This document shows, piece after piece, positions 1 to 53,265 of a stretch of 54,085 nucleotides of DNA. Origin of the DNA: a virus; the IMG/VR virus record IMGVR_UViG_3300039037_000056, positions 1-54,085 of that record, one strand, 5' to 3'. The translations under genes were made by a program, and so were the position numbers. Every line of letters begins with the position of its first letter. The first letter of the stretch is position 1. The notes beneath the pieces were generated by a model, which saw only the letters and a program-made list of their open reading frames with translations, was not told the origin of the DNA and made no database searches.

Positions 1-205
1 TTTGATTTGATCGGGATCCATTGATAAACTCCGTGAGAAGGGACTTGATTTCATCTATATCTTTCCGCATTTCATCAAGTTCTTGTTTTTGACGATCGCG
101 GTTAGATCTCATCTTAACATACTCATTATAACCAGTTGTATCAGTATTGACAATTGCACCCGTATCTGTGCGATACAGGTGCTTATGATCTTTTACTTTC
201 TTCAT
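1..205 (-). CDS. Conserved small virion-region protein, truncated by the window edge
   Basis: The ATG at 205-203 overlaps the stop of the upstream DUF4815 gene in a TGATG arrangement, so the two are probably translationally coupled. The visible 68 residues start MKKVKDHKHLYRTDTGAIV and turn into a charged, probably coiled-coil stretch (RSNRDRQKQELDEMRKDIDE). The reading frame stays open to position 1, so the C-terminus is missing. I recall similar short proteins after the large baseplate gene in cyanophages but know no function for them. Confidence 0.8.
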   Translation of the reverse strand, partial: MKKVKDHKHLYRTDTGAIVNTDTTGYNEYVKMRSNRDRQKQELDEMRKDIDEIKSLLTEFINGSRSNQ

Positions 206-11800: not shown

Positions 11801-14800
11801 ATTAGACATGACCATAGAGGTATGAGCACCACCAATGAAAGTAGATCTTGGAGTGTAGGTTAGTTTCTCACGATCACTGAAGAAGTGATCAGAAATTGTG
11901 AATACGCCTGTTCCAAGATTGACTACGGTAGAAATACCAGGATTGAATTGCTTTTCAAATACTGGGACACCGTTGTGCCTAACGTCAAAGTCAACCTTAT
12001 TAGTTCTATCACCATTAATAGAGTCAAACTGAGCAGTTTTTAGTTGTTCGTTTGCAGATCCGTAAGTCAATGTTGCAGGAACATTATTCAAATCTTTCTC
12101 AGTTTGAATGATTTCACTATAAATTTGAACGGTAATATCATCACTAATGTTGGAATCTGGATGGAATATCAGAACGAAATTATTGCCGTTGATATCAGCA
12201 CCAAATGTACCAATACCCATTGTGCTGCCGATAGACAGATGTGGATATTGAACTGTAAAGGCATTTGTGTCATTATGGTTGAATAAGACTTGATGTAATG
12301 CAGAGGTGTTGCCGTAAGACACCTTCGCCGTAGATTTAACTGTAGTTACATCTGACTTATCATAAGTCAGTACTGTAGAAATTCCAGTTCCTGAGAATGT
12401 GGAGAATTTCGTTTCAAGGCGACCCTCTCTAACAGAACTGTCTGGTTGACCACTTGCTTTGAAGGTATGAGTGCCAATTCCAGCACCAACTGTATTAAAT
12501 CCAACAATCCTAGAGCGAACAAGAACGTTGTTGGACTCAGTGTTTTCAAAATTCAACTTAAGAACACCAGATGCAATGTTGCTGGTAAAGGTTCCAATAA
12601 ATTTGGGAGAGTATCCTAAAGTGCTGTTATCAAAGAAGAAGTCTGATCTATAAGTATCAGTTCCATCATGATCAACAAACATATCGACAACCGTCTTGTC
12701 TTTAGTAACAGTGTTAACAAGTTCAATATTTGCAAATAAAGATTCAGTTCCACTTGAGGAACCTTCAAAAACTAATCCTGTAGAACCAACACCAACAGAA
12801 ACATTATTTCCAATCAGATTAACAAATCCGACAGATTGTGTACCAATACCAGCAAGAGTTGTGTTAAAGTTATTCTTTATGAACTTAACATCTAGATCAT
12901 CATTATAAGGATCATCTGGAGTAAGTCTCAGTGAAACATTGTCAAAAGCATCCTTAAATGCTTCAATATTAGCAAGGTCATTTTTTGTATTATGAATAGA
13001 TGCTTTCTCAACAGTGATTAAATCATCATCTTTTGTATTAACAACAATCAATTCAGTTGCCTGAAGATCTTTGCTGTTAGGTTTGATCATCTGAACCAAA
13101 TATCTACTGTACCCATCATTTGAAATAAACTTGTCAATGTCACGATACAGTGTCGTATTAGCATTCTCTTGGTTAGAGAATTGACTATTAAAGTTATCAA
13201 TAGTTAGAACTCTATTAGTCTTACACTCAATATAATCAGAAAGTCTCTTATTTTGGAATTTGATAAACTTAGACTTATTGTTTGAAGTATCAACATCAAT
13301 ACCAAAATCAAAGAAGTTGACCGCATCAACTCTCATCGTAGATCCGTTAGCACTGAGATTGATAATATCAATCAGAGCAGTGCTAGTTGCGGATGTGCTT
13401 GTTGCTGCAGAGACTTTTCCTTCTGATGTAATTCCAGTATCAGCAAAGTTTTTCAATCCAGAGGAATGAAGCATTCTGTTGACAGGGTTTACCCAATTTT
13501 CAAATTCTATTGGACTCTTTATACTGTATGAAAGATTCTGATAATAATCATTGTCTGGTACTACTTGGAAATCTTCATTTAATTTACCAGTATCATTTGA
13601 CCATCCATTATCAGTTTCGAGAGAATAATCAACTTCAAAAATACCTGTGTTTTCATCAATTTTGTTGATAGTCGCTATGGTTCCAGAATTTCTTCCAACA
13701 ATTACATCATTTTTAGACAGTTCGTAGGTTCCATAAACCTTAATTGCATCATTTAGATTATTGGTAACTACCAGGTCTATTTCAGTATAAGTATTTCCAG
13801 ACTTGATGAAGAGTGACTCACCAACAATAAACTCTAGAGGAGTTTGTACAACAGTGAAGGTTGGATAGTTGTTCCTATTAACAAGAGTAGCAAAGGTACT
13901 TTGTCCATCTGTTTGAGCAACACCAGCATTAGTTGCATAAGGAGAAATATCAAATTCAACTTCTGCAGGATTAGTGTTCCTGTATGCAGTTACTTTGAAG
14001 AAATTATAAGAATAGTCTTGAGAATTAAATCCAGTTCCTGTAGTAGATGCTAAAGAAATATTCTCGGCATATACAAAATCATTTACAGCAAATGGAGCTG
14101 TTGCAGTTGTAAATCCGAGTGTTGGAGTTGCAAGAACACAAGTTACTACGCCAGCAGGCGAAGAGAAAACACTATTAACACCAACACCATTACTATTATT
14201 AACTGAAAATACCTTAGACTCCGTATCAGAAAGACCTTTGGGAACATCAAGTGTTTCAACTTCATTGATAGACGAACCCTGTATCTTAGCAATGAGAGTT
14301 CCATTATCATAGGCAGATCCTGTATCAGGGTTGACTAGAACCAGTTCTGGAGGAGAGGTAAATCCAGAACCACCGGAAGTAATTGTTATACCAGAAATAG
14401 TATTTCTATTGATAACTGTAATATTAGGTGAAATATAAACTTCTGGATTGAGTGTCTTATCCGCAGAAAAATCAAATCCAGCATCTTGAATGGTAACTTG
14501 ATTAATTCTACCAAGAGTTGTTGATGTTGGGATAATGTCTGCGTTAATACCTGCAGTAGATGCTATACTTACAAACTTGGGTAATTTCTTGTAACTGGCA
14601 CCACCAAAGGTGATTTCCATTTTGTCAACACCACCAAGAGCTCTTGGTGATGAAGTAGAATACTTGAGTACACTAGTAGAATCTTGATTGTAATCAAGGT
14701 CTTCTGGAACACTCTTAAGAGAAACAGTAAATACGGTCTCACCAACTCCAGTAACACTGTATGTTCCAGAATAAGTGCTATCAATGAAATTAATTTCAGA

Positions 14801-17800
14801 ATAGTTTGTAACTTCAGTATCAGCGGTGCTAATATACCCTGCCTTATCCAGTTGATAGTAAACTTTAGATGGAAGGTTCTTATTGAAATTAAGAGTTACT
14901 GTTGATGCAGTTACTGTATTGGCAATACCAACAGTTCCAACACCAACTGTGCTGAATGTTGTAGAAGATCCAATAGAAACTAATTCATTCTTGAAATCGC
15001 GATCATAATACAGTCTGAAGTTATAACCACTCAATGATGCATCATTTACATTGAATACTAGATTGTTATCTCTAACAACATTCAATCTTGGGTTGATAGG
15101 AGACAATTCGTGACTGGATCCACCGATAGATCCGAAACTAACCACGGTTGGTGGATTAGATAACGCATCAAACTTAGTATTAGTAAGATTGATAGTGTTG
15201 TCATCAATTCTGTAAACAAAGTAAGATCCGGTAGAAAGACCAGATATAATAAGATCAGAGTCATAAAATACCTTGTCACCTGTGCTGAGACCATGCTCAG
15301 TGAGTGTCAATCTATTTGTAGAGGTGGTTACCGCAGCTGAAGTAAATCCGATTGGATTAACAAGTAACTTATCGTTTGCAGAGTTATACTTGAGGTATAC
15401 AGAAACTGATGTTCCAATTCCGACTGATTGTTCTGAGTTTACACTCAGATTTACAACATCACCATTAATAAGACCGTGTGCTGTAGAAACGGCAACTTTT
15501 GCTCTAATTTTTTCTACTTTGGCAGTTACTTGAGTTTTATTTGAGGTAAGAGAATATCTGTAATCTCTACTGTCGGCGTTGGACGTTATATTTCTGAAGA
15601 ACAACCCTTCAGTATTTGTGGTAAGACCAACTTGAGTACAAAGACCAATTATATCATCAGTCTTTTTAACTACAAATAAAGTTTCAGTATTTCCACTTTG
15701 TGGAATACTATAAGTTGCACTAGTATTGCTATTAGAAACAGTAAATCCTTGTGAACCAGCAAATCTTTCAAACGTAACTTGTTCACCAGTCTTGAAAGGA
15801 TGATTTGGTAAATAAATTCCTTGAGTTGGAACAGAAATAGTATAATGACGACTTCCGGTAAAATATCCCTTTGAAGAGGATGCTCCGATAGTAGTACCAA
15901 TACCTACAGATTGAATACTATTAAAGAATACCTTGTCATTTACGGCAGAATCAAAGTAAGGGACATTTACAGGTAAAGTAAACTTACTTGGAGATACAAA
16001 TACATCACTGTTTGCAGTGTGTGCGGCACCTACAATGCCCCTCAATACTCTAATTACCTTTTTGTCTGGGTAAGTACCCAAAACAGATAAAGTCTCTGTG
16101 CCAATGCCTAGAGTGCTACCTACGGAGATAGAGTCAACTACTCTATTAACAAATATATCAGTAACAAAACCAACTGTAGAGTTCGCTGCAGCTTCAACAG
16201 AAAGACGAGTTCTCTCTGACGAAACTCCAATTTTGTGAGACTTTGTTAATCCAGAAATGAACGTGGATAGTCCAGAAACTGCAATTTGATCGTTGTCAAA
16301 ATATTCATGGGATGGATCTACATTGACAGATACTGCTCCACTCTTTTGCCAAACAAGAACTGCATTTTGATGACTTTGAATTGTGGTAGTTACATCAACG
16401 ATAGACTTTCCAGTAACTCTACCGATGTATGCAGAAAGTCCACCACCATTAGTATCAGTATTGTCAAAAGTTGCACTCTCACCAACTCTATAGTTTGTAC
16501 CAGAATTGTTAATAGTGAAACCTTCTACAGATCCCCGTGTAATAGAATCAATAAGGGCACTTTGAGTTAGAACTTCATTTGGTTCAGAAACAAAGTCATT
16601 AGTAGCAAATTTATCTCCAGCAACATATGGAAGAGTATTTCTTCGTAAATCAGAAGAATTGAAGTCAAAGTTCTGATTGATATTTTGAGTTACTGGAACA
16701 GAAGAATAAGAACTACCAATAAAGAATGGGAATTTGCTATTCTTACCATCACTGGTTATTGTGGCATGATAAGCATAAACTCCATTAGGATATTCTGGGG
16801 TTTTGGAATATCTTCCATTATGCTCATCAAGATCACCAGAATCTGTAAACTTGTAATCTTCTACAAAGAATCCAGCATCAAATCCAGATGGTCTATCAGA
16901 AACTTCTGCTGTTGCTAATTCATAACTACTTGACAGAATTTTTATACCAGAGTTGATGTCTGCAGGATCTGTATATGCATAACCTCCATATATCGGATTA
17001 CCATCGTATGCCCAACCAATAATTGGAGAGTGTTCTCCTCCATTATCATTAAATGCATCTGCACCAATAGCAGTTGAATATCCCACCAATCCATATCCAA
17101 GTTTTTCGTTATTGTCAACTAAAACTTCATCACCAAATCTATCATGAGTATTGCAGACTAAATCTCTTACTTCTACATCAACAACGCCGTTAGAACCGGC
17201 AGAAGTTATGATTACTGAAGTAGTATTTTGAACATATCCTGCACCACCAGTAAGAACTACAACGTTAGTAATTTTTCCACCACTAACAATAGCTCTGAGT
17301 TTTGCTCCAACACCATCACCCTCAACTTCAAGATCGGGGGCAGATGAATATTCACTTCCAGTATTAGTAACTTGAACAGAGACAACTTTACCGCCAGAGA
17401 TTAATGGTTTTAACTCTGCGTTCTTACCATTTTTAATCTTAATGTCTGGTTTTTTGTGGAAGTTCAGGATTGTTGATCCATAACCTGTACCAGTCTCATA
17501 CAAGTAAAGATCAACAATCTCACCTCTTACAGATGGAGTTGCTGTGATAACTCCAGATACACCATCAAACTCTGCATTAACTGTGATTGTTACTGGAGGA
17601 TAGGCAAAGTTTTGAATTCCAGTACCCACACCAGTGATGTTAACATGCTGTCTCTTAGTGTAATCAGTTGTATTTGTTCCACCAACTCCAGCATTTGCAA
17701 GTCTGAAAGAATGATCGTCAATCTTCAATACTTGATACTGAACGTTGGTGTTTAATCCAGTTACGGCAGTATTGTCAGTTGTGTAGAGAATTTTATCTCC

Positions 17801-20698
17801 ATCTGAGAATCCATGATTATTGAAAGTAACTGAATTACTGACAGAAGAAATATTTTCAGACTTGACTTTTAATTTTCTGTTCTCATACCCACTTCCAGGG
17901 TTTATTACTTTAATTTCACTAATATTTTTCTTGCCATCAAATAATCTAAATTTATGAATGCCTTGAGAAAACGTGGTGAATCCTACTGTGCTAATACCAC
18001 TTGAGTAATTCTCAAAGGTTTCATACAATTTAATTGTTGTTGTGTTGACAACTTGAGCAAAGTATACAGACCCACTCGCCAACGCTTTGTCTTGGTGAGT
18101 GTTTGAACCACCAAAGGTTCCAATACCAATCGCATTATTACCATTTCTGCTATAGACAATAGCATCACCACTTCTCAGATTGTGTGGTTTATCAAAAGTA
18201 ATAGTATCATCACTATTATTAACACTACCTCCACCAGAGGTTGAACGAGCATCAAACTCAATCTCACGATACCTGGTTTCTAAAATTGGTTGCAGAACTG
18301 CACCAGATCCATTGCCACCATCAATAGTGATAGAAGTAACATCTACCAAATCAAAATCTTGTGGGTCAATTTGTACTTCAGTTACACTACCACGAACTAC
18401 AGGTCTTACAAGAGCAGTGGTATAGGCAGCTCCAGGAGAACCGATTTCAATGGTTGGTGGATTGATTACATCGTAATTTTTACCACCATTGTAAAGTCTT
18501 ACATTTTTAATTGGACCAAAGTAAATCTTATCATTTGACTTATAGTTTACAACTTCAGTGCCATTAATTAACATTCCTGTGGATCCAGGAATAGTTGGTG
18601 TTCCTTTACCGTCCTTGATATTTCTATCTATTGGGAATTTTTTCAATAATTGTTGAGGATAAATTGCCTCACTCTTTTGACTTGCAAGAACAAATTTGTG
18701 TGTGCCTGCTCCAGCAGACGTAAACTCTAAAGAAGATCCTCCCTCAATTAAAGACCTAGAAGCAAAGAGTTTAATTTGATTGGATGCGGACAGCACCTTA
18801 ACGAAGTAAACGCCCTCAGAGAGTCCTACAAGCGTGTCTGAGGATGCTTTATAGAAGACTTCATCACCAGTTACGAAGGGAACTGGTGATGCAAAAGAGA
18901 TAATGCTATATTTTTGTGTTGACGCACTAAATCCTTGAAGAGCACTGCCAGCAGCAGACGCAAGAGTTGCACTCAGAGCAGTCTCACTTATGTCATATGA
19001 AGGTAAGGAGTTTGAAGCAACGTATGCATGAGTATCATCTGTATATACATTCTGAACATCAGTCGTGACGGTGTTATCGCCATAGAACAATGGAGTACCG
19101 CTACTGGTAGCGGTTTCAACTTTTCTCCTAATTGTGTAGATTGTTGTGGAATTAGCAGTAAATCCTACAAGGTTGTTGAGGGTGATTTGCTTGTTTACAG
19201 CACTAACTGTAGCGACTACAGCGTTCGCATGGAGAACAGTTTCCGTAGATCCACTTAGAATATCTACAGTATCTCCGACTTTAAGGCTAGATTCATCAAT
19301 TTCACTCTTCAATTGAACTGTGGCACCATTGATGCTTTCTACATCAAATCTACAACTTGTGTTGTAAATCCAACTATTAGCAAATATTTGCTTATCGGTT
19401 TTATTGAGTTCTGGATTTTTGATTCTTTCACCAATATTTTTAACGAATATCTTTTGTCCTTCGTTAGACAATAAGATATCATTCGTCGCTTTAAATTTAG
19501 AAAGAACACCACCAATACGAACTTCTACTTTCTTGGAAATATCACCATCTTCATAACCAATGTAGACTTCATCAGTTCTAAGTTCTGTTGATGGGGTAAT
19601 AGCAGTTCCAATACCACTGCATCCAAGAAACTGGTTTACAGTTTTATCTGTATATTCAATCGTATTTCTTCCAGAAATAATCTTTCCAGTCTGAGCAAAC
19701 CCAACAGTAGAATCAACAGTAACTACAGAGGCACCGACACTGACTGTATTTACTACTCTTGTAGCAGGTTGAACCTTAAAGGTCCCCTCAATAAGATCTC
19801 TATCATCAAAACCTACAAATAGTCCAAGTTTATAATATGTGCTAATTCCAGAGCGTGTGAAAATTTCTACCTCAGATACTGAAGCTTGAGTAGCACTGTC
19901 AGTAGATTTTCTAATTGTTTGTCCGACTAACTTATTCGGATCACCAGAAACTCTCTCAACAACAACCTCTTCTCTTCTTCCAAACTTTGCTGCTGAGGGT
20001 TTTACTAGATAATCTTCTAAATCAATTACTTTAGGATCGACACCATAAAGAACTTTGAAGAGAATCTTGAAAGAATCCTCTGTTCCTTTTGATTCGTATA
20101 AACTTCTTATCTCCTTGACAAAGTTATTAACATCTAAATCATCTACAAAATCAACATCTTCAAGACCAGGAGCAAAAGAATACTTTAACTTTCTATAAAA
20201 TTCCTTGAGAAAAAGAGCACTGAGGTTCTGTACTATAGAACCATTAGCATGAACTCCCTCTGAAGTGTCGCTGAATACTAATTCTTCTGGATCAAGAGAA
20301 GAACGATATGAAGAAATGCCACTAAAACCTCTAATACATCCAGTAAAAGAAGTTGCAGTTTTTCCAGTATATGTTATAATTTCATCATCAATCTTAAACA
20401 GACCATATTCATCAGGAAATCCTTTGGTTGTAGAAACCTGAACTGTATCGGCAGTAGAAGAAATTCCAGCAGTCAAACTGGTATATCCAGTGACAACCTC
20501 TGGTGTAAGGTTATCAAATTTAAGATACTGGTCTAAGTTCTCAACAATATCAGTAGCACCGCCCTGATGTTCTTGAGAAATATAATATTGCTTCAGAAAG
20601 TCAATAGATTTTGGACTTTCGGATCTAAGAAATTCGGGTAACTGACTTTCAATTACTTGCTGAACCTTTACCCTTCTTTCAAAGCCTGTTTGTATCAT
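8825..20698 (-). CDS. Giant gp7-position baseplate wedge-like protein with YHYH domain (3957 aa)
   Basis: One uninterrupted frame of 11.9 kb. The N-terminus (MIQTGFERRVKVQQVIESQL, then an acidic and aromatic helical segment to about residue 250) resembles the cyanophage protein that occupies the T4 gene 7 position. At about residues 1220-1310 is a YHYH domain: GWAYDGNPIYGG, then LDEHNGR and YPNGVYAYH. Much of the remainder is a string of beta modules with recurring G-x-GY signatures (GGKNY, GSGY, GTGY, GGAGY, GGSGF, GGTGY, GAGY, GFGY), plus D-x-E-I-x-x-Y-T...RG modules. T4 gp7 is only about 1030 aa, so this version is greatly expanded. It starts after AGAGGATAAGA, 3 nt from the gp6 stop. Confidence 0.8.
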   Translation of the reverse strand: MIQTGFERRVKVQQVIESQLPEFLRSESPKSIDFLKQYYISQEHQGGATDIVENLDQYLKFDNLTPEVVTGYTSLTAGISSTADTVQVSTTKGFPDEYGLFKIDDEIITYTGKTATSFTGCIRGFSGISSYRSSLDPEELVFSDTSEGVHANGSIVQNLSALFLKEFYRKLKYSFAPGLEDVDFVDDLDVNNFVKEIRSLYESKGTEDSFKILFKVLYGVDPKVIDLEDYLVKPSAAKFGRREEVVVERVSGDPNKLVGQTIRKSTDSATQASVSEVEIFTRSGISTYYKLGLFVGFDDRDLIEGTFKVQPATRVVNTVSVGASVVTVDSTVGFAQTGKIISGRNTIEYTDKTVNQFLGCSGIGTAITPSTELRTDEVYIGYEDGDISKKVEVRIGGVLSKFKATNDILLSNEGQKIFVKNIGERIKNPELNKTDKQIFANSWIYNTSCRFDVESINGATVQLKSEIDESSLKVGDTVDILSGSTETVLHANAVVATVSAVNKQITLNNLVGFTANSTTIYTIRRKVETATSSGTPLFYGDNTVTTDVQNVYTDDTHAYVASNSLPSYDISETALSATLASAAGSALQGFSASTQKYSIISFASPVPFVTGDEVFYKASSDTLVGLSEGVYFVKVLSASNQIKLFASRSLIEGGSSLEFTSAGAGTHKFVLASQKSEAIYPQQLLKKFPIDRNIKDGKGTPTIPGSTGMLINGTEVVNYKSNDKIYFGPIKNVRLYNGGKNYDVINPPTIEIGSPGAAYTTALVRPVVRGSVTEVQIDPQDFDLVDVTSITIDGGNGSGAVLQPILETRYREIEFDARSTSGGGSVNNSDDTITFDKPHNLRSGDAIVYSRNGNNAIGIGTFGGSNTHQDKALASGSVYFAQVVNTTTIKLYETFENYSSGISTVGFTTFSQGIHKFRLFDGKKNISEIKVINPGSGYENRKLKVKSENISSVSNSVTFNNHGFSDGDKILYTTDNTAVTGLNTNVQYQVLKIDDHSFRLANAGVGGTNTTDYTKRQHVNITGVGTGIQNFAYPPVTITVNAEFDGVSGVITATPSVRGEIVDLYLYETGTGYGSTILNFHKKPDIKIKNGKNAELKPLISGGKVVSVQVTNTGSEYSSAPDLEVEGDGVGAKLRAIVSGGKITNVVVLTGGAGYVQNTTSVIITSAGSNGVVDVEVRDLVCNTHDRFGDEVLVDNNEKLGYGLVGYSTAIGADAFNDNGGEHSPIIGWAYDGNPIYGGYAYTDPADINSGIKILSSSYELATAEVSDRPSGFDAGFFVEDYKFTDSGDLDEHNGRYSKTPEYPNGVYAYHATITSDGKNSKFPFFIGSSYSSVPVTQNINQNFDFNSSDLRRNTLPYVAGDKFATNDFVSEPNEVLTQSALIDSITRGSVEGFTINNSGTNYRVGESATFDNTDTNGGGLSAYIGRVTGKSIVDVTTTIQSHQNAVLVWQKSGAVSVNVDPSHEYFDNDQIAVSGLSTFISGLTKSHKIGVSSERTRLSVEAAANSTVGFVTDIFVNRVVDSISVGSTLGIGTETLSVLGTYPDKKVIRVLRGIVGAAHTANSDVFVSPSKFTLPVNVPYFDSAVNDKVFFNSIQSVGIGTTIGASSSKGYFTGSRHYTISVPTQGIYLPNHPFKTGEQVTFERFAGSQGFTVSNSNTSATYSIPQSGNTETLFVVKKTDDIIGLCTQVGLTTNTEGLFFRNITSNADSRDYRYSLTSNKTQVTAKVEKIRAKVAVSTAHGLINGDVVNLSVNSEQSVGIGTSVSVYLKYNSANDKLLVNPIGFTSAAVTTSTNRLTLTEHGLSTGDKVFYDSDLIISGLSTGSYFVYRIDDNTINLTNTKFDALSNPPTVVSFGSIGGSSHELSPINPRLNVVRDNNLVFNVNDASLSGYNFRLYYDRDFKNELVSIGSSTTFSTVGVGTVGIANTVTASTVTLNFNKNLPSKVYYQLDKAGYISTADTEVTNYSEINFIDSTYSGTYSVTGVGETVFTVSLKSVPEDLDYNQDSTSVLKYSTSSPRALGGVDKMEITFGGASYKKLPKFVSIASTAGINADIIPTSTTLGRINQVTIQDAGFDFSADKTLNPEVYISPNITVINRNTISGITITSGGSGFTSPPELVLVNPDTGSAYDNGTLIAKIQGSSINEVETLDVPKGLSDTESKVFSVNNSNGVGVNSVFSSPAGVVTCVLATPTLGFTTATAPFAVNDFVYAENISLASTTGTGFNSQDYSYNFFKVTAYRNTNPAEVEFDISPYATNAGVAQTDGQSTFATLVNRNNYPTFTVVQTPLEFIVGESLFIKSGNTYTEIDLVVTNNLNDAIKVYGTYELSKNDVIVGRNSGTIATINKIDENTGIFEVDYSLETDNGWSNDTGKLNEDFQVVPDNDYYQNLSYSIKSPIEFENWVNPVNRMLHSSGLKNFADTGITSEGKVSAATSTSATSTALIDIINLSANGSTMRVDAVNFFDFGIDVDTSNNKSKFIKFQNKRLSDYIECKTNRVLTIDNFNSQFSNQENANTTLYRDIDKFISNDGYSRYLVQMIKPNSKDLQATELIVVNTKDDDLITVEKASIHNTKNDLANIEAFKDAFDNVSLRLTPDDPYNDDLDVKFIKNNFNTTLAGIGTQSVGFVNLIGNNVSVGVGSTGLVFEGSSSGTESLFANIELVNTVTKDKTVVDMFVDHDGTDTYRSDFFFDNSTLGYSPKFIGTFTSNIASGVLKLNFENTESNNVLVRSRIVGFNTVGAGIGTHTFKASGQPDSSVREGRLETKFSTFSGTGISTVLTYDKSDVTTVKSTAKVSYGNTSALHQVLFNHNDTNAFTVQYPHLSIGSTMGIGTFGADINGNNFVLIFHPDSNISDDITVQIYSEIIQTEKDLNNVPATLTYGSANEQLKTAQFDSINGDRTNKVDFDVRHNGVPVFEKQFNPGISTVVNLGTGVFTISDHFFSDREKLTYTPRSTFIGGAHTSMVMSNGSVLPSTVYAIKVNNDEFKLATSKTGAAVTFNSAGSGNGHTLEMEKKLEKSLITIDGVSRSPLAFTPINYTLSNNGGSIAIGATYFGISGISSILPGDVLKVDNEFVKVNAVGLGTTTIGPITGSGSFNVVKTERGYVGTLATTHTDGSVVRLFRGSYNMTRSKIHFTEAPRGNTQELVDNSNIPFHKSTFNGRVYLRNDYATNQVYDDITRQFTGIGATYRLTVGGANTTGIETGSGLVFINNMFQTPTTDNNTGGNYSFTESGGVSNIVFTGVKDSNDDLVISETDVNKNQLPRGGMIVSLGSTQGLGIAPLVGASVTAFVSGGVIQSIGAGATDILGSGYRGSVAIGITDPNHTGNAAAVTVTVGAGGSLAFNVTNGGTGYSFNPTINIPSPSYENLEITGVSRLGQGATTDTGSGLLLNVEVGAAITAVGIGSTLFEVKNFKIARNGYGFRIGDKFKAVGLVTAKGLPAMVNEPEFEVLDIFNDKFAAWQFGELDYIDSISDLIDGSRVRFPLNYKGELLSFEVDKNNPDSSVIDLEAVLLIYVNGVIQQPNVHYQFVGGTSIVFTTAPTANDNIDIFFYRGTRGTDSVSVNVNTSVESGDILQMQKTDNSLAQDPRTIYNINNSDKVETNIYAGLGIDDTNFKPLSWIKKKVDQRLGGELVDKSRDSIEGQVYPTARVIGDISASATEIFVDDAQFFNYEENESSINITSVNGLLVNTSTEHVSAAVTAVVSATGTISSLDVTEEGAGYSGSATLKIAAPKAVGVGVGTTATGTVAIVNDFINSASVTNAGFGYTRTAPPQVLVSAPALSVETLTGITAVAGFAATITGISTAVGTGGNALALAFSFTASSTTGLQEGYPIFVKNTSVGNGVRSINGSDNSIVAIGTTFLDNVYIINDLHLTATTGVATCNILSTTTHAGLTTTGSLTVPQGTLSWGRLSGFTRASSPIAIGVTGLRVDAGLSTFPTIQRRGFGLRDNGSLRKDLG

Positions 20699-27693: not shown

Positions 27694-27810
27694 TCAAACG
27701 AGGCGAGGGGTATCGCTGCTGACGACAATACATCGACACTGATCCTGCCACAAAATAATATCAACGATTCGGCGTGTGCCAGTTGCCAAACTGTCTACTA
27801 CTGCCCCCAT
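27694..27810 (-). CDS. Possible 38-aa ORF with a strong ribosome binding site
   Basis: The ATG at 27810 is preceded by GGGGGGAGATA, the strongest SD-like sequence in the region, where neighbouring cassettes have none. The product begins MGAVVDSLATGTRRIVDIIL and ends at a TGA at 27694. It lies between the terminator at 27870-27899 and cassette 7, in an otherwise gene-free stretch. No promoter is obvious, so this is tentative. Confidence 0.35.
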   Translation of the reverse strand: MGAVVDSLATGTRRIVDIILWQDQCRCIVVSSDTPRLV

Positions 27811-34153: not shown

Positions 34154-34170
34154 GGGGGTTGGTTCCCTTG

Positions 34171-34187
34171 ATTACTCTGTAATCATA
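34171..34187 (-). promoter_or_regulatory. Palindromic operator/promoter, copy B
   Basis: The palindrome ATTAC-TCT-GTAAT (34171-34183) overlaps -10 TATGAT (34182-34187), 29 nt before ATG 34153. The string CTTGATTACTCTGTAAT followed by C/T-ATA is shared with the restriction gene promoter at 35875-35891. It overlaps the last codon of the methyltransferase. Confidence 0.65.
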
Positions 34188-35256
34188 CAGTCTCCAGGGC
34201 AACCTCCAATGGGTTGTGTGCCAGTTCTTTGACTGTCACAGGCAAATTTTCCCAAATAATCTTTTCTATAAGATCAAAGCGAAGATTGAGTGCTCCATTG
34301 GTAGACTTGAATGAAGATTCCTCCCAATCAATACTCTTCATCACAGAATCCATGACTTTCTTGTCAATCAGTGAGACGATTCCATATCCACGGCGATGTG
34401 GAAGTTCCTCAAAGTCATACTTGACTTCCATCTCACTGAAACATGTGGACGGAAGATAATAATCACACGAATTTAGGTGTTTCTTGTTGCGTGTGCTGCC
34501 TGGTGTGCCTCCGTCGCTCAGACTATAGATTTTGATGATCTTAGACAGATCAATGGCATCTTCCTCTACTTTGTGATTCTTAGACCACACTTGAAAGACA
34601 CAATTAACTTCAACATCTTTGCCACCTGGGTAGTAAAATGCAGAGTCAACAACCTCACTATGAATGAGATTCATGCCCTTCACACGTCCTTTACAACTAC
34701 CTTTGCCATTACTATCAAACAACTGTGGCAGCACAAAGCATACAAAGTCAGAAAACTCTGCTGCATGATTGATAAACTTAAGTGCAAGATGTCCTCGCAA
34801 TCCAAACGGTGGATTACCCACAATGATGCTCTTCTCAACATCAGGTTGCCACTGCAAAAAGTCTGCCTGTGTGACACCTTCGCATTGTGGTTCAATATCA
34901 ACACCGATAGAACCTTCAGGCATCAGGTGATAGAAACTACCGTCACCTGCTGATGGTTCAATGAAAGTATATCCATCCAGACTCTCATACTGTGAGATTA
35001 CTTCCAATGCTTTCTGATAACAATACTCAGCAGTCTTCTTGTTAGTGAAGAACTGATCTTTCTCTTTATCACTATACTTACTATAATCAACTTCAATCTC
35101 TGCAATACGGCAAAGATCAAAGTAATACTGATGCGGAACCTCTTTCTTTTCCAACCACCGTTTCACTGTGCCTCGGTGCAGATACAATCCATCACAAATA
35201 GTTTTCATACCATACTTCTGATAGATTGGATAAAAGAAGTCGTAGATGTTATTCAT
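34183..35256 (-). CDS. N6-adenine-type DNA methyltransferase with N-terminal HTH, 357 aa
   Basis: Residues about 17-55 (MKTICDGLYLHRGTVKRWLE, then PHQYYFDLCRIAEIE) read as a helix-turn-helix. Motif I is FIEPSAGDGSF (98-108); motif IV is NPPFG (148-152), diagnostic of adenine-N6 methyltransferases. These are followed by FVCFVLPQLF and a C-terminal recognition-like region. It overlaps the upstream nuclease gene by ATGA. An HTH fused to a methyltransferase is known from regulators of their own R-M promoters such as M.SsoII and M.EcoRII (cytosine enzymes), so autoregulation is plausible here. Confidence 0.78.
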   Translation of the reverse strand: MNNIYDFFYPIYQKYGMKTICDGLYLHRGTVKRWLEKKEVPHQYYFDLCRIAEIEVDYSKYSDKEKDQFFTNKKTAEYCYQKALEVISQYESLDGYTFIEPSAGDGSFYHLMPEGSIGVDIEPQCEGVTQADFLQWQPDVEKSIIVGNPPFGLRGHLALKFINHAAEFSDFVCFVLPQLFDSNGKGSCKGRVKGMNLIHSEVVDSAFYYPGGKDVEVNCVFQVWSKNHKVEEDAIDLSKIIKIYSLSDGGTPGSTRNKKHLNSCDYYLPSTCFSEMEVKYDFEELPHRRGYGIVSLIDKKVMDSVMKSIDWEESSFKSTNGALNLRFDLIEKIIWENLPVTVKELAHNPLEVALETV

Positions 35257-35861
35257 GACAGTTTTTTCAGGAGGAAGAGTGCCAGTTCTTCTGGATGGGT
35301 AGAATTAAAATCATACTCGAAAGTGACTCCTGCGTCAATACCCTTGCGGATAGACTTCATGCTAAAATCCACCTTTGCCTTCCCCTCTTCATTCTTGCGC
35401 TGGTGTGCCTTCTTACCGAAAATAGAAAGGTCCATGGTATTGTCCTTCACCACCATGTCATAATCGACAACGGTGATAAACATCACATCATTGCGATCAT
35501 AATCAAGGAAGACCAACTTATCCCACTTGTTGTCTGAGAAATATACATTTTCATGCTGCCATCCAATCGGTCTGCCGTTAGAAACCGTGCGCCCAGAGGT
35601 CTTTACTTCAACGCGAACTTTCTTACCGTTGTGGAGATACCAGAACAGATCATAGACACCATCATCATTAGAGGTGTTAGAATCTTCATCCCATTGAACT
35701 GGAATATCAGTGTAATCCTTGACGAACTTGTAGAGAAGTTCTTCACCATACTTACCCTTGTAATCAGTAGAGAAGTTTGTTACCTTCTCAAACAAAGAAC
35801 CAGACCAGTATGATGCCTGTTCTTGGTAACTCTCCATCAGTTCGATGGCGATGCCCCTCAT
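35253..35861 (-). CDS. Putative type II restriction endonuclease (PD-(D/E)xK), 202 aa
   Basis: ATG 35861 is chosen because it follows the promoter at 35886-35891; the longer frame to 35948 runs through the promoter. Begins MRGIAIELMESYQEQASYWS. The segment DGVYDLFWYLHNGKKVRVEV, then KTSGRT, matches the D...ExK core, with Asp71, Glu85 and Lys87 and a possible upstream Glu (E40/E41). Translational overlap with an adenine methyltransferase strongly supports a restriction-modification role. A phage Holliday or repair nuclease is the alternative. Confidence 0.7.
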   Translation of the reverse strand: MRGIAIELMESYQEQASYWSGSLFEKVTNFSTDYKGKYGEELLYKFVKDYTDIPVQWDEDSNTSNDDGVYDLFWYLHNGKKVRVEVKTSGRTVSNGRPIGWQHENVYFSDNKWDKLVFLDYDRNDVMFITVVDYDMVVKDNTMDLSIFGKKAHQRKNEEGKAKVDFSMKSIRKGIDAGVTFEYDFNSTHPEELALFLLKKLS

Positions 35862-35874
35862 TGGAAACCTCTTG

Positions 35875-35891
35875 ATTACTCTGTAATTATA
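35875..35891 (-). promoter_or_regulatory. Palindromic operator/promoter of the R-M pair, copy A
   Basis: ATTAC-TCT-GTAAT (35875-35887) overlaps -10 TATAAT (35886-35891), 25 nt before ATG 35861. A binding protein here would block polymerase. Sequence and position match copy B at 34171-34187. Confidence 0.68.
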
Positions 35892-36369
35892 GGGAACCGC
35901 AGAGACGATTCGGGAACCCAGTGGACGGTTCTTCAACTGGCACACCAAATGTGTCAGTCAACCACCAGTTGTATAGTCTCTCTTCTTCTTCCCGTGCCTC
36001 AACCTCATGTGGTTGATACCAATAGTCCCAATTTTCTACTGGTGTTTTACAATAACACAATTTTCCATAACGATGGCGCAGAGAACCACGGATCCACTGC
36101 GCCATGTGCGTCAGTTCATGCAAAAGAGTCTGAATATACAACTCCTTTGTCATGTAGGTGTCAAGTTCAATCAAAAAGTCACGGGGGCGATAAGGATCTG
36201 CCCATGATGCAACATCACAATATCCACGAACAAGTTCTTCTTTCAAATCACGGTGCTCAATTTGCACTTCAATTTTGTGACGTGGAAAGAAGTTATTCAG
36301 AAACCAGGAGGTAACATCCTCACAGAGTTCTTGAGAATAACCGTATCCAGAATGAGTGATGAAAGACAT
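35887..36369 (-). CDS. SprT-like zinc metallopeptidase, 160 aa
   Basis: Begins MSFITHSGYGYSQELCEDVT. The helix YIQTLLHELTHMAQWIRG carries HExxH at 84-88, and a third ligand is plausible in YQPHEVEAREEE (His121/Glu125). This is the SprT-like layout; relatives of the family act on DNA-protein crosslinks, though the phage substrate is unknown. The stop lies in the R-M promoter. An alternative overlapping 44-aa ORF covers its first 24 codons. Confidence 0.75.
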   Translation of the reverse strand: MSFITHSGYGYSQELCEDVTSWFLNNFFPRHKIEVQIEHRDLKEELVRGYCDVASWADPYRPRDFLIELDTYMTKELYIQTLLHELTHMAQWIRGSLRHRYGKLCYCKTPVENWDYWYQPHEVEAREEEERLYNWWLTDTFGVPVEEPSTGFPNRLCGSL

Positions 36370-42432: not shown

Positions 42433-43596
42433 TTAGCGACGGATAGTAGAGATGGCGGGTTGACCCTGCTCGAATACAGTGTCTACGACCGCCTGGACGG
42501 ACCTGGCGGTGCCTACACCCACTTTATCATAGACAGGCACACAAACCAAGCCAAAGGTCTTGTGACGGTCTCCTAGGCGGATCACACGACCAATAGACTG
42601 TGAGATACCGATGCAGTCCATGTTACGCATGAAGAGCACTGCTTCCAGACCATTGACATTGATACCTTCAGACAGGATAGAATGGTGGATTACCACAAAA
42701 CGCTTCTCAGGATCCTTGCCCCAGGCATTGAGTGTCTTGAAGAACTCATCGCGATCAACCTTGACACCATCAATAAAGGCACCAGTTTTTGACGTGATGT
42801 AGAGACAAGAGTATCCACGCTCACGCAGTTGATGGTAGAAGTCTGACTCTGCCAGCAGTTTGACAATCTGACGTGTTGACCTAGCAGCAATCAGAATTTT
42901 ATTCAAAGAGTTGCCATCAATCGTATCCAGTAGGTTCTGACAGTCAGACTGTTTGAAGTCACCCTGAGGCAGTTCCGTGATGGAGACCTTAGGTGGGAGA
43001 ATGTAACCCTCCTCAACCAGTTTAGGTGCAGGCACATTACAAATTACCTGACCGTAGACTTCACCGTCATTCATCCCAGGTTTGAAGATGCTGACAGAGT
43101 GCTTAGGTGTTGCCGTAAAGAAATAGCAACGCTCAGCATCATTACTGAAATGTTCTGTAGCAGGAAAGAAGTTGCGCTTTACAGAGTTGTGTGCCTCATC
43201 AAAGTAGATAGTGTGAGCGTTGATACCAGACTCTTGAACCCTGTGAAGGGAATGATAAGTGGTAAAGATCAGTTGCTTACGATATGCCTGATCGCTCCAC
43301 CGTTTGATATAAGAAGACTTGGTGCTGCTAAAGTGCTCCGTCTCACCACTGTGAACGTGGAGAACAGCAGCATCTTCAATATGCTCCAAGAACTCAGAAC
43401 ACAACTGCTGTGCCAACAGGATACGAGGAGCAACTACAACAATGATGCCAGCGTCATGAATAGCAAAGTGATCCAGTGCATCCTGAATCATACACATGGT
43501 CTTACCACCACCTGTAGGGATGATAACTTGACCTTTGGTGTGCTTCAACATCGCATCACATGCTTGACGCTGATGGGGACGAAGGGTGATAGTCAT
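42433..43596 (-). CDS. SF2 DNA/RNA helicase, 387 aa
   Basis: Complete SF2 motif series: RPHQ (6-9), Walker A PTGGGKT (27-33), APRILLAQQL (motif Ia), DEAH (133-136), FTATPKHS (motif III), and a C-terminal domain with SEGINVNGLEAVLFMR and motif VI QSIGRVIRLGD. The layout resembles the ResIII/UvsW-like helicases used in phage recombination and repair. It is more compact than T4 UvsW (503 aa). An extended -10 promoter lies 22 nt upstream. Confidence 0.87.
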   Translation of the reverse strand: MTITLRPHQRQACDAMLKHTKGQVIIPTGGGKTMCMIQDALDHFAIHDAGIIVVVAPRILLAQQLCSEFLEHIEDAAVLHVHSGETEHFSSTKSSYIKRWSDQAYRKQLIFTTYHSLHRVQESGINAHTIYFDEAHNSVKRNFFPATEHFSNDAERCYFFTATPKHSVSIFKPGMNDGEVYGQVICNVPAPKLVEEGYILPPKVSITELPQGDFKQSDCQNLLDTIDGNSLNKILIAARSTRQIVKLLAESDFYHQLRERGYSCLYITSKTGAFIDGVKVDRDEFFKTLNAWGKDPEKRFVVIHHSILSEGINVNGLEAVLFMRNMDCIGISQSIGRVIRLGDRHKTFGLVCVPVYDKVGVGTARSVQAVVDTVFEQGQPAISTIRR

Positions 43597-47889: not shown

Positions 47890-50800
47890 TTATTTATGGT
47901 GCTCATCAACTTTCGCATTAAGTTGTTTGATTGCCTCAATGAGCAGAGGCACAAGTTTTTCATAACGAACTGCCATGTATCCATCCTCTCTAGTTGTATA
48001 GAGACCTGGTAAATCAAGACCTGCAACTTCCTGAGCGATAACACCGATGTCAAGTCCTTCTTTATCGGACTTATCATTCCATTCAAATGTGTTACCACTA
48101 AGACTCAATACCTTAGCGATAGCATCTTCAATAGGTTCAACATTATCCTTCAGTCTTTGATCGGAAGAGGAGAAGGCGATAAGATCACCTGTGAATGTAC
48201 CAGCACCAGTGACGGAAATAGGACCAGCAAATGTGTGAGTACCAGTTCCATTAACATCAAGATTATCATTGACAACTAATGTGCCACCAGCAGAGTCAAG
48301 AGTAAGATTACCAGTTGTGGTATCAATCGTGTTGTCTGTAGTATCAGCGATTTGGATATTGCCGAAGGTAGCACCAGTCGCTACAACTGTTCCAGTTACA
48401 TTAACACCAGTGGTGTTTGCCTGGATTCTTGTGGTTCCGTTAGCATCTACAAGTGATGTTTGGTCAATACCTGTCAGATTTGAACCATCACCAAAGAAAC
48501 TGGTGGCAGTGACATTACCGCCGACATGGAGGTTCTTGTCAATTCCAACACCACCATCTACAGTCAGAGCACCAGTTCCAACACTGGTAGACTGTGTAGT
48601 GTCAGTGATGTTGAAGACACCTCTAACTTTAACAGAAGCATCAACATCAATATCTTCATTGAACTTTGCCTCACCGTTGAAGGTAACAGGACCATCAAAC
48701 TGAGAAAGAACAGTACCAGAGTTACCACCCTCAACAATCAGTCTCTCTTTGACGATAACTTCATCAAAGACTACACTGTTGACGCTAGTATCTTCACCAG
48801 TTACAGTTGGGATAGGAATATCAAAGGTCTTCTCTTTACCGGTGGCAGAGTTAATCTTCTTGTTACCGATGTAGAAGTCACCATCGTTGTTCATACCAGT
48901 GTAAACAACGATACCACAATTCTTCTCTTGTGCTTGTGCCAGAGTCTCCTCTTCTTCGTTCAGAGATCTGACCTGAACTTGAGGAAGTGCGGTAGAATAG
49001 TTACCTGGACCATAACCAAGGTATTCAAATGTATGACCAGATGCTCTCAAATATGTTGGTCTGTGGAACTCAATCGCCTTGAGTTCAACTTTCTTGATGA
49101 GTGCTCCACCAGAATGATTCTCCTTAACTGTACCCATGGCACCACGGATAACAGTCATTTCATTACCACCAGAGCCACTTAAGACATTGCTGGTGACTCG
49201 CATAATCTCATTGTCAACCTGGAAGTAAGAACCAAGTTCAAATCTAGCAGCGGTGGCAACACCAACATTTGTCGTCTTGACGTGAATGGTGGTCTCATTA
49301 CTAATGTTGGACTGGAGAATAGCAGTCTCATTACCGAAGAACGACAGACCTCTAGAACCAAGGTTTTCACCATTCTTATCAGATGTCAGATCATTAGCAG
49401 AAAGTCCATGCTTCAGCAGGAACTTAGGTCCGTGGATTGTAACACCGACACCAACATTTGCTGTGACTGTAGTTGTGGTGACACCAGTTACATCATAGTG
49501 ACCAAGGTTAGCATCACTACTGTTCTTAATTGTCAGTCTGTTACCAACTACGAAACCATGTGGTTCAGTTGTTGTGAATGTAGTTATACCAGATGTGATT
49601 GTTGTGGTAGCAGTAGAAACTGTGATTTCAGGAGCGATATTGATAAGATACTGACCCTGAATTGGTCTTGCGTCAGAATTACTGATAGCAATCGCAACCT
49701 GGTTCTTAGCAGGAACACCAGTAATTCTGAAGTGTCCGCTGGTGTGAGTGCCAATACCAGTCAGTTGAATTGTATTACCAATAACAGTGGAGATTCCAGA
49801 GGTAGTAATAGTAACACCAGCACCAGTTCCACCACCAACTCTAGAAGTATCAAAGTCTAACTCTTCGTTGTTTGTGTATCCAGAACCACCAGAGGTAATA
49901 TCAACGTTGGATACTTTACCACCAGCAACAACAACTCTTGCCGTAGCACCATCCCATGTAGATGTGCCGTTGTTGAACAGTTTGACGTTATGATAGGTGC
50001 CATTAGTGTATCCAGAACCACCAGTCATGGCACTGAAAGTTACGATGCCGTTGAAGTTGTGGTTCTCATGGAATGTGAGTGTGGCAACACCAACTGTATT
50101 TGTTACGAAGGAAGTAGTAACACCAGAGATGGTAAGACCAATACCAAGTGTAGGAAGAAGACTGTCAATACTTTCTCTAGTAATACTCTTCTTCAAATCA
50201 CTTGTCGTAACATCACCAACTGGTGATCTTATAGCGAAGGACTGTGCAGACTCTGGATTGTCATCTACATTATCTTTATCCTGCTGTGGATAGAGATCAT
50301 CAACCTTCTGACTATAATAGTGAGAGGTATATTCTGTAGGAATGGCATTATTAGCGTTCAGAACATACAGATGGTAGATACCATCACTTACATTCTCAAC
50401 ATATGGTGTGATGACTTCGTTTCTGTAGATATAGAAGTTACCTTTCCAGTCAGTTCTCTCAAATCTAGGTAGAGCAATCGTTCTGGTGCTGGTATTGTTA
50501 GTGAAGCTTCCACCATTGTGGGTAATGCTATCAACGTCAGTTGTGGAGTGGGTGAATGTCTTTTCATTAGGAATAGAAAGGACAGTAAAGACACCGTTGT
50601 ATCCTTTGTTCTCTGTTCCAGCAGTGTTACCTGTGCTGGTAACATTCTTAATTGTAATCTTTTCACCAACTTTGATGTTGTGTGGGATCTCAGAGATGAC
50701 AGTTACAGTAGAACCTGAAGTAGAACAGGTGCTGATGAACCTTGGATTTCTGTTAAAGTCTGGATCAGAAGTTGTGATGCCAGTAGCAGTGAAATCAGAA

Positions 50801-53265
50801 TCAGATCTCAATGATGTGGTGCTGGATTCTTGGAGAACAAATCCTTCTTCTGGTTCCTTACAATTTGTGAGTTCCTTAGGAACAACAACTCTCAACTTAT
50901 ACAGTTTCTCGTCAAGACTTCTAGAATCTTCTTTTCTCTTGATGAAACTGGTTGTTGTTCTAGTTCCAAGAGTTCCGGTGCCTTGAGTATTAAAGGCATT
51001 GTAGATCGCATTGTCAGCAGAAGATTTAATAAACCAGTTGCCATTACCTGCATCAAACTGAATTGGAGAACCAATCTCACCGGCATTCTTTTCAGAAACT
51101 CTACTACGAACTCTTAAACTTGTGCCACCGTAGAGTGTGATTGCCTCATCATTCTCGGCATTTGTAAGAGATGCTGCAACCTTAATGGTGGTTGCACTTG
51201 CCTTGATAGCAAAATAAACCTTATGTGCTTCAATGTTCTCTGGAAGATCTCCAGTGTCACTATTGATGACAATCTTCTCACCAGTGATGAGTTTGTGAGA
51301 TCCAATAGTGAAGGTGCTGTTGTTTACTAACGTTACCTTATATTCTTTGACAGAACTGGTCTCGCCAAGGGCAGAAGTAATACCGGTGGTGCTGATCTCG
51401 TTATCAACCATGAGAACATCAGCAGTGTAGGTAGTTCCAGAACCTACAAAGGACAGTTTCTCGTTCAGTTTGGCACCAACACGATAACCTTGAATCTTGT
51501 GTGGAGGTTTGATATTCTTGTCATTGTATCCGAAGAGATACAGGTGACTGGAGATACCAACAGAAGTTGTCAGACCTACGTCAAGAGTTACCCAGTCAAT
51601 ATCCTCTTCTTTAGTTGTGACTGCTTTAGGAGTGATTACAGATGTAATGTATCCCTTATTATCCTTGTTAAACGCTGCTTTCTTAAATCCAACACCATTC
51701 AGAGAGATTTGTCCAAAGTTTGAGTTGGAGTTTGTGATACTGAAGTCAGCACCATTTCTACCATCAAAGTGATAGGCAAAACCAATAGCAAAGACAGATA
51801 CAACCTGAAGGAAGGAATCATTAGATGCCTTGATGTGAGAACTTTCCCATCCAATTCTGTACTGTGCCTCACTATCTAAGTGATAGACCTTAGTGGCATC
51901 AGTGGATGAAGAACCACTAGCGAGAGCGGCACCAGTCACCTTAGATACACTAATACCCTCGTAAACTCTAGAGGACTCATTATACTTAACGAACGCTCTA
52001 TCGTCCTTCTGAAGACCTACAGCAGTGAACTGAGCGACAACCATGGAGCGGAATCCAGTTGCCTTACTACCATCAGCGTGCATACCGTTCATGCCGAAGA
52101 CGGAACGCAGAGAGATGTTAAAAATGTATGGAGAAGCACCCTGGACTGTATCAGTCTCGATGGTGACAGTGGAACCAGAAGCACTAGGAGATGCAGTCAG
52201 GTTGTTTCTAACAAATGGGAGCAAGAACGTAAATGTTCTAGCATCAGTAACGTTCTGAACCGTAGTAGCGATATTATAATCTTCTACACTGACACCTTTA
52301 ATCTTGATGGGTGTTCCAGATGTCAGTTTATGGTCGGTGCTAGTTGTAACTGTGATGACACTGCTTGGTGTAGATCCATCACCAGAAATGACGCTGGAGA
52401 TATTGACAGGATCATCAGCAAACGCACCAACAATCTCAAATTCTGGACGCTTGGCAGCAAAACCAAGTGGGTCTGCTGGCCACTTCTGGTCAATGTTTCT
52501 ACCAGTCTCAGTGTTGTAAGCATTAGAGAGCTTACTATAATACATTGATAGGTCAGAAATAGTGTAACCAGTTGGAATGGTTACACCATCAGCGTATTCA
52601 AAAACAGTAAGTTTGTGGTGAGAGAATGTAGGTGTGGCAGTATTTGCAGAGGAGAAGTCTTGACTGTCAGTATAAACAGTTCCACTCTGATCACCGTCAA
52701 AGATAGAGAACTGCCAGAAGTAACAAGTACCAGTTACCCTGAATAAAGCCGTTCCAGATAAGTTAGTATCTGTTGGGTTTGGTACGTATTTTGGTCTAAG
52801 TTTGGTTTTTCTTAAGTCAAGACCAACAATAGAAGTACCACGAGGAACAATGACACCACCATTGATGCTATTGAACTTATAGAGGATATTATCTTCTTGG
52901 GTTAAATCAAATACAGAATCTGTAGTTAATGTAAGAGTTGTCTGTGCGTTTGATGTAGCACCAGATGGAGAAACAGCAGTCGCAGTTCCACTTACATCTT
53001 TGATAGCAAAACCGGGTCTATTATCAATAATGTGTTCTCCTGGATACAGAAGAATGGTTGTCTTCTCAATAATATCATTATCACTTCCCCTCAGATAGGA
53101 GAATCTCGCTGCCTCTAGCAGTGCTCTCTGGACAGTCTTGAATGGTTTCGTTAAAGAGTTTCCCTGATTCTCAATCGCGTCAGTAGCGTCAAGGTCACTT
53201 GGGTTTACATAAAGAATACGACCCTCAGTATTCTTTATAAAGTTTTCCAGCTTATTAAGAGGCAT
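47890..53265 (-). CDS. Large tail fibre with C-terminal S74 intramolecular chaperone, 1791 aa
   Basis: N-terminus MPLNKLENFIKNTEGRILYV with SDLDATDAIENQGNSLTKPF and TVQRALLEAARFSY, a pectate-lyase-like entry strand seen in cyanophage fibres. The middle holds beta modules, including GGSGYTNGTY and GGSGYTNNEELDF repeats and Q-V-D-N-E-I-M-R-V...RG. The last 93 residues are an S74 chaperone: SSSDQRLKDNVEPIEDAI, then GVIAQEV and MAVRYEKLVPLLIEAIKQL. The S/K dyad probably self-cleaves before the Ser after trimerisation. It probably determines host binding. Confidence 0.85.
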   Translation of the reverse strand: MPLNKLENFIKNTEGRILYVNPSDLDATDAIENQGNSLTKPFKTVQRALLEAARFSYLRGSDNDIIEKTTILLYPGEHIIDNRPGFAIKDVSGTATAVSPSGATSNAQTTLTLTTDSVFDLTQEDNILYKFNSINGGVIVPRGTSIVGLDLRKTKLRPKYVPNPTDTNLSGTALFRVTGTCYFWQFSIFDGDQSGTVYTDSQDFSSANTATPTFSHHKLTVFEYADGVTIPTGYTISDLSMYYSKLSNAYNTETGRNIDQKWPADPLGFAAKRPEFEIVGAFADDPVNISSVISGDGSTPSSVITVTTSTDHKLTSGTPIKIKGVSVEDYNIATTVQNVTDARTFTFLLPFVRNNLTASPSASGSTVTIETDTVQGASPYIFNISLRSVFGMNGMHADGSKATGFRSMVVAQFTAVGLQKDDRAFVKYNESSRVYEGISVSKVTGAALASGSSSTDATKVYHLDSEAQYRIGWESSHIKASNDSFLQVVSVFAIGFAYHFDGRNGADFSITNSNSNFGQISLNGVGFKKAAFNKDNKGYITSVITPKAVTTKEEDIDWVTLDVGLTTSVGISSHLYLFGYNDKNIKPPHKIQGYRVGAKLNEKLSFVGSGTTYTADVLMVDNEISTTGITSALGETSSVKEYKVTLVNNSTFTIGSHKLITGEKIVINSDTGDLPENIEAHKVYFAIKASATTIKVAASLTNAENDEAITLYGGTSLRVRSRVSEKNAGEIGSPIQFDAGNGNWFIKSSADNAIYNAFNTQGTGTLGTRTTTSFIKRKEDSRSLDEKLYKLRVVVPKELTNCKEPEEGFVLQESSTTSLRSDSDFTATGITTSDPDFNRNPRFISTCSTSGSTVTVISEIPHNIKVGEKITIKNVTSTGNTAGTENKGYNGVFTVLSIPNEKTFTHSTTDVDSITHNGGSFTNNTSTRTIALPRFERTDWKGNFYIYRNEVITPYVENVSDGIYHLYVLNANNAIPTEYTSHYYSQKVDDLYPQQDKDNVDDNPESAQSFAIRSPVGDVTTSDLKKSITRESIDSLLPTLGIGLTISGVTTSFVTNTVGVATLTFHENHNFNGIVTFSAMTGGSGYTNGTYHNVKLFNNGTSTWDGATARVVVAGGKVSNVDITSGGSGYTNNEELDFDTSRVGGGTGAGVTITTSGISTVIGNTIQLTGIGTHTSGHFRITGVPAKNQVAIAISNSDARPIQGQYLINIAPEITVSTATTTITSGITTFTTTEPHGFVVGNRLTIKNSSDANLGHYDVTGVTTTTVTANVGVGVTIHGPKFLLKHGLSANDLTSDKNGENLGSRGLSFFGNETAILQSNISNETTIHVKTTNVGVATAARFELGSYFQVDNEIMRVTSNVLSGSGGNEMTVIRGAMGTVKENHSGGALIKKVELKAIEFHRPTYLRASGHTFEYLGYGPGNYSTALPQVQVRSLNEEEETLAQAQEKNCGIVVYTGMNNDGDFYIGNKKINSATGKEKTFDIPIPTVTGEDTSVNSVVFDEVIVKERLIVEGGNSGTVLSQFDGPVTFNGEAKFNEDIDVDASVKVRGVFNITDTTQSTSVGTGALTVDGGVGIDKNLHVGGNVTATSFFGDGSNLTGIDQTSLVDANGTTRIQANTTGVNVTGTVVATGATFGNIQIADTTDNTIDTTTGNLTLDSAGGTLVVNDNLDVNGTGTHTFAGPISVTGAGTFTGDLIAFSSSDQRLKDNVEPIEDAIAKVLSLSGNTFEWNDKSDKEGLDIGVIAQEVAGLDLPGLYTTREDGYMAVRYEKLVPLLIEAIKQLNAKVDEHHK
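47891..47897 (-). promoter_or_regulatory. T4-type late promoter box
   Basis: ATAAATA on minus, overlapping the stop of the 1791-aa fibre gene, 20 nt upstream of ATG 47871. Confidence 0.7.

Follow-up and report, generated by a model that had tools for sequence, protein, structure and literature searches.

Complete type II restriction-modification (R-M) systems are usually interpreted as bacterial defence. Viruses encode such systems as well. In chloroviruses, the genes for the restriction endonuclease and the methyltransferase are adjacent and the endonuclease is packaged; degradation of host DNA starts within 5 min, presumably through these enzymes (PMC7019647). In marseillevirus, the endonuclease gene is transcribed before the methyltransferase gene, the viral DNA is protected and the host DNA remains intact, and the authors favour a role in co-infection (PMC7253447). 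A similar attack role has been proposed for the Mom-nuclease fusions of jumbo phages (PMC7824862).

The pair described here lies in the uncultured virus record IMGVR_UViG_3300039037_000056, a 54-kb fragment whose whole length (54,085 bases) is hereafter called the window. Its source is, by sequence comparison, an uncultured T4-like cyanophage, since the 4 kb around the pair match solely Synechococcus, Prochlorococcus and cyanophage records, and T4-type baseplate wedge and tail genes are found elsewhere in the window, together with a phage ferredoxin and a DEAD/ResIII helicase. The cyanomyovirus origin proposed in a first-pass annotation, which was made from the DNA letters alone, agrees with these matches. 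Three ORFs together fill much of the window, at 205-7245 (2346 aa), 47890-53265 (1791 aa) and 8825-20698; the last, at 3957 aa, is unusually large and is flanked by two baseplate wedge genes. Type II R-M systems as such are already known; what is unusual in this case is the phage carrier and the spread of the pair among uncultured phages. No published report of it was found in the open-access literature, to which the search was confined, subscription papers being outside its scope.

The nuclease and methyltransferase genes

Both genes are encoded on the minus strand: R, of 202 aa, at 35253..35861 and M, of 357 aa, at 34183..35256. The stop codon of R and the start codon of M share a 4-nt ATGA overlap (35253..35256, minus strand), which makes translational coupling likely, and the junction is tight in close relatives (0 to -8 nt). 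The two frames, their overlap, and the residues D71, E85 and K87 of R and the IEPSAGDGSF and NPPF motifs of M are all located where the first-pass annotation had placed them. No helicase or specificity-subunit-like gene adjoins the pair, the nearest helicase found being 6.5 kb away (42433-43596); unlike type I and III systems, it would need no ATP-dependent translocase subunit.

Alignment of R with its viral relatives (identity down to 29%) and bacterial relatives (18-24%) leaves seven residues invariant from phages to Brachyspira, Campylobacter and a Mollicute: G36, G39, D71, E85, K87, Q102 and K163. Among them, D71, E85, K87 and Q102 constitute the PD-(D/E)xK catalytic set, which in R is arranged as the E40 helix, D71, E85-x-K87 and Q102. 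In a Foldseek search, the AlphaFold2 model of R (pLDDT 83.7) matched best the homing endonuclease I-Ssp6803I in the PDB, with a probability of 0.99 and a moderate E-value of 4e-3; weaker matches were restriction enzymes (3ndh, Eco15I, EcoRV, and PvuII). The sequence of R gave no significant match when searched directly against Pfam, NCBIfam, and the PDB, and its best family match was phrog_6927, of unknown function. Because R of the window reaches none of the PADLOC restriction endonuclease profiles, its link to restriction enzymes runs through its relatives. The bacterial ones match REase_II (Campylobacter 2.4e-42, Brachyspira 1.5e-13, and the Mollicute 3.5e-8), as do several viral ones weakly (best 2e-5 to 6e-5). 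R is identified, via these relatives and its predicted fold, as a separate PD-(D/E)xK endonuclease. The proposal of such a nuclease paired with a methyltransferase is thus borne out by the invariant residues, the Foldseek matches and the adjacency of the genes; neither of the contrary outcomes named in advance, the lack of this fold or homologues unlinked from methyltransferases, occurred.

The motifs of M are all conserved: an X-like DQFFT (residues 67-71), motif I IEPSAGDGSF (99-108), and motif IV NPPF (148-151). M matches M.TaqI both in a profile search (4.8e-5) and in fold, residues 62-334 match the PADLOC profile MTase_II (1.8e-59), and phage methyltransferase families are matched as well. 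M is, as judged from profile, fold, and motifs, a gamma-class, M.TaqI-like N6-adenine DNA methyltransferase with an N-terminal helix-turn-helix (HTH), its sequence specificity being predicted. The HTH (approximately residues 1-61; 35074..35256, minus strand) appears in the AlphaFold2 model as three helices (4-24, 28-37, and 42-52). Matches to HTH_23, HTH_17 and related Pfam families are weak (best 0.011) and restricted to some members, and the invariant residues of this part are T30, R33, W34, P41, D47, and L48. The expectation of an adenine methyltransferase with an N-terminal HTH accords with the M.TaqI matches and the modelled helices.

Proposed mechanism and role in infection

R and M are considered, with a probability of about 85%, to constitute a functional type II R-M pair of an uncultured T4-like cyanophage. 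M would methylate an adenine within a short, specific DNA motif and thereby mark the replicated and packaged phage DNA, while R would cut the same motif where it is unmethylated. The two genes might share one R-then-M transcript started at a promoter directly upstream of R, and the translation of M would be coupled to that of R through the ATGA overlap. The infecting genome would already be methylated, so that R could attack unmethylated DNA soon after entry: that of the host chromosome, with the host stopped and nucleotides released, or that of a competing phage. The first-pass annotation had cautioned that timing control would matter with the nuclease gene in first position. The gene order is as it described; the concern carries less weight than it seems to, since R precedes M in the transcription of marseillevirus, whose DNA is protected, and since the DNA of an incoming virion is expected to have been methylated in its previous host.

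Two roles could follow from a functional pair. It is a serious possibility, if below even odds, that R acts mainly in host takeover, cutting the cyanobacterial chromosome early in infection. The chlorovirus enzymes, adjacent in the genome, packaged, and associated with host DNA degradation within 5 min (PMC7019647), offer the model for such a function, and the proposed first position of R in the transcript is consistent with it; marseillevirus, however, leaves the DNA of its host undegraded (PMC7253447). Competition between phages, in which R destroys the DNA of co-infecting or superinfecting phages devoid of M, is possible though short of probable. This function was proposed for the marseillevirus system, related viruses without which have unmethylated, cleavable DNA (PMC7253447), and for the jumbo-phage fusions (PMC7824862), whereas the restriction enzymes of chloroviruses caused no mutual exclusion (PMC7019647).

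Unprotected competitors are probably common, since no isolate record matches R: a tblastn search of 50,697 phage records with R gave no match. Of two such searches of isolate phages with diverged relatives, one gave none and the other a single weak match (E 0.03), an "endonuclease" of Pseudomonas phage JD05. The pair is nevertheless maintained by purifying selection across many uncultured phages, some of them T4-like cyanophages, and its interest is ecological: it is common among uncultured phages, with no counterpart seen in isolates. If active, it would give marine cyanophages an epigenetic means of telling self from non-self, with possible effects on host takeover, co-infection, and phage recombination.

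Upstream elements and the helix-turn-helix domain

The region upstream of R contains two kinds of dyad element. Directly upstream of the gene (35871..35891, minus strand) lies the 21-nt element TATAATTACAGAGTAATCAAG, composed of a -10-like TATAAT and the dyad ATTACnnnGTAAT; a near-copy of it (34167..34187, minus strand) overlaps the stop codon of M and precedes the next gene. The second dyad, GTGnCAGTTnnnnAACTGnCAC, is located about 80 nt before R (35922..35943), with another copy at the 3' end of M (34218-34239). An ORF directly upstream of R (35887-36369) encodes a 160-aa SprT-like zinc metallopeptidase-like protein with a HELTH motif; its SprT-like match is weak (0.0015), and it matches phrog_10499 at 1.1e-42.

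With up to three mismatches, seven copies of GTGnCAGTTnnnnAACTGnCAC occur in the window against 0.38 expected (positions 27776, 28944, 33367, 34218, 35922, 37140, and 38027), several of them at gene 3' ends. About half of the 28 loci tested have a recognisable copy (up to five mismatches) at positions -75 to -82 relative to R, and most of the GTGnCAGTTnnnnAACTGnCAC-like copies before R in the tested loci score better than shuffles. The dyad recurs beside genes unrelated to the R-M pair and probably represents a regulatory or promoter/stem-loop cassette used throughout the phage. In several relatives, R is also preceded by a hairpin resembling a terminator and by a promoter-like TTGAC sequence. 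Promoter/stem-loop cassettes (PeSL) have been described for T4-type phages, as cited in PMC4503421, and, to the extent that this citation portrays them, the elements upstream of R look like such cassettes rather than an M-specific operator. It is tempting, though doubtful, to regard the pair as a mobile R-M module serving as a weapon in conflicts of cyanophages with each other or with their hosts. The cassettes would shuffle the module among T4-like cyanophages and the HTH would give phage-timed control; carriers would be methylated, and non-carriers, including all sequenced isolates, would be the targets.

Self-regulation of the pair, as suggested in the first-pass annotation, is unlikely. 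It would require the HTH of M to bind the dyad before R and to repress the operon until M accumulates. The HTH is indeed conserved both in the phage family and in homologues from phytoplasmas, and ATTACnnnGTAAT stands directly before R and again after M. However, ATTACnnnGTAAT is absent before R in the relatives, including those with similar HTHs, while GTGnCAGTTnnnnAACTGnCAC, the second of the upstream dyads, also occurs beside genes that have no relation to the pair. Relatives of M from Brachyspira and Campylobacter match it solely from residue 67 onwards and do not include the HTH part, which is therefore not essential to an R-M pair; the HTH might instead serve target binding or dimerisation. 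The weak Pfam matches of the HTH and the missing palindrome leave the self-regulating character unsupported. An HTH operator was likewise rejected as a feature of the family, as the ATTACnnnGTAAT dyad before R is not kept in relatives. An exact dyad search in viral contigs gave scattered hits among the matches listed, which do not bear on the question either way.

M.SsoII and M.EcoRII are HTH-methyltransferase fusions of the C5-cytosine class. The analogy drawn between them and M holds for the N-terminal HTH and the idea of such a fusion; it is loose because M is a gamma-class adenine methyltransferase, with neither a C5-cytosine domain nor the support of a conserved operator.

Linkage of the genes and comparison with known systems

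Four scans of viral contigs yielded 64 distinct contigs, found through R or M; some are near-identical, so they do not represent independent lineages. Both genes were detected by profile search in 58 of the 64, and one further contig has the pair, with the first 34 residues of M following R before the contig ends (L019/L040). Two contigs that end at the pair (L007 and L027) were excluded as uninformative, which leaves 62; the two genes lie side by side in 59 of these. The true exceptions number three: L050 and L059 encode R but have no M in the vicinity, and L081 has M alone. In L059, the R homologue (4980-5519), with no M in reach, is close to an Hsp20-like gene. The genes flanking the pair vary between contigs while the pair stays, and one contig (L089) has the reversed order, M-R. 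Together with the homologous M-R pairs of bacteria, this reversal argues that the linkage, which extends across lineages, is more than the common inheritance of a single locus.

Among the closest pairs, R has dN/dS values of 0.06-0.15 and M of 0.08-0.14. Such low values point to purifying selection on R and to the maintenance of both enzymes, and speak against the view that only M is of use. Comparison of independent contigs confirms that the pair is real and far beyond chance, since they keep the start codon, the frames, the tight junction, the catalytic residues, and the low dN/dS of R. In four contigs (L026, L028, L031, and L032), identity to the window is 37-44% for R and about 65-73% for M, which hints at replacement or fast divergence of R. 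A rival reading, in which M serves to evade defence in the manner of the orphan methyltransferases of coliphages and R is a recombination or repair nuclease adjacent by chance, is very improbable: methyltransferases of the same family do occur in rV5-like and KIL phages without an R neighbour, and some R genes lack M, but both genes are kept in those 59 contigs and in several bacterial loci, with gene order shifting around, and even within, the pair.

When bacteria were first scanned with the R profile, no relatives came up; a scan with M detected them. M-then-R pairs occur in five Brachyspira loci, in Campylobacter troglodytis and in a Mollicute. The pair of Brachyspira alvinipulli (L103:3036-4650) is located between portal and terminase genes, i.e., in a prophage. 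'Candidatus Phytoplasma australiense' encodes three HTH-bearing copies of M (L099, L101, and L108; 44% identity), with no R found nearby, which suggests exchange between phage and mollicute mobile elements; one copy (L099) is followed by a transposase-like ORF. In Mycoplasmopsis cynos (L093:2705-4379), an M homologue overlaps the ORF directly before it, which has a PD...ExK-like motif, goes unrecognised by the R profile, and possibly represents another R family beside the same kind of M.

The functional R-M pair proposed for the window resembles several known systems in different respects. M shares with M.TaqI the order of motifs, the NPPF/NPPY type of catalytic motif, and the Rossmann fold, and differs from it in the N-terminal HTH and in a C-terminal target-recognition part that is not detectably alike. 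The orphan methyltransferases of rV5-like and KIL phages belong to the same family, with 34-37% identity across the catalytic domain; unlike M, they have no HTH and no nuclease neighbour. Bacterial type II systems of Campylobacter and Brachyspira (MTase_II PDLC03280 with REase_II PDLC03498/PDLC03515) consist of homologous, adjacent M and R with the same catalytic residues. They differ in gene order and in the M match that starts at residue 67, and the identity of their R to that of the window is 18-19% (24% for the Mollicute). The chlorovirus systems, like the pair of the window, are adjacent genes encoded by a lytic virus; their host is eukaryotic, and the comparison made here concerns the arrangement of the genes (PMC7019647). 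The GATC-specific system of marseillevirus (mel_015/mel_016), from an amoebal host, is likewise similar in organisation, being a viral pair with methylated viral DNA and with R before M (PMC7253447).
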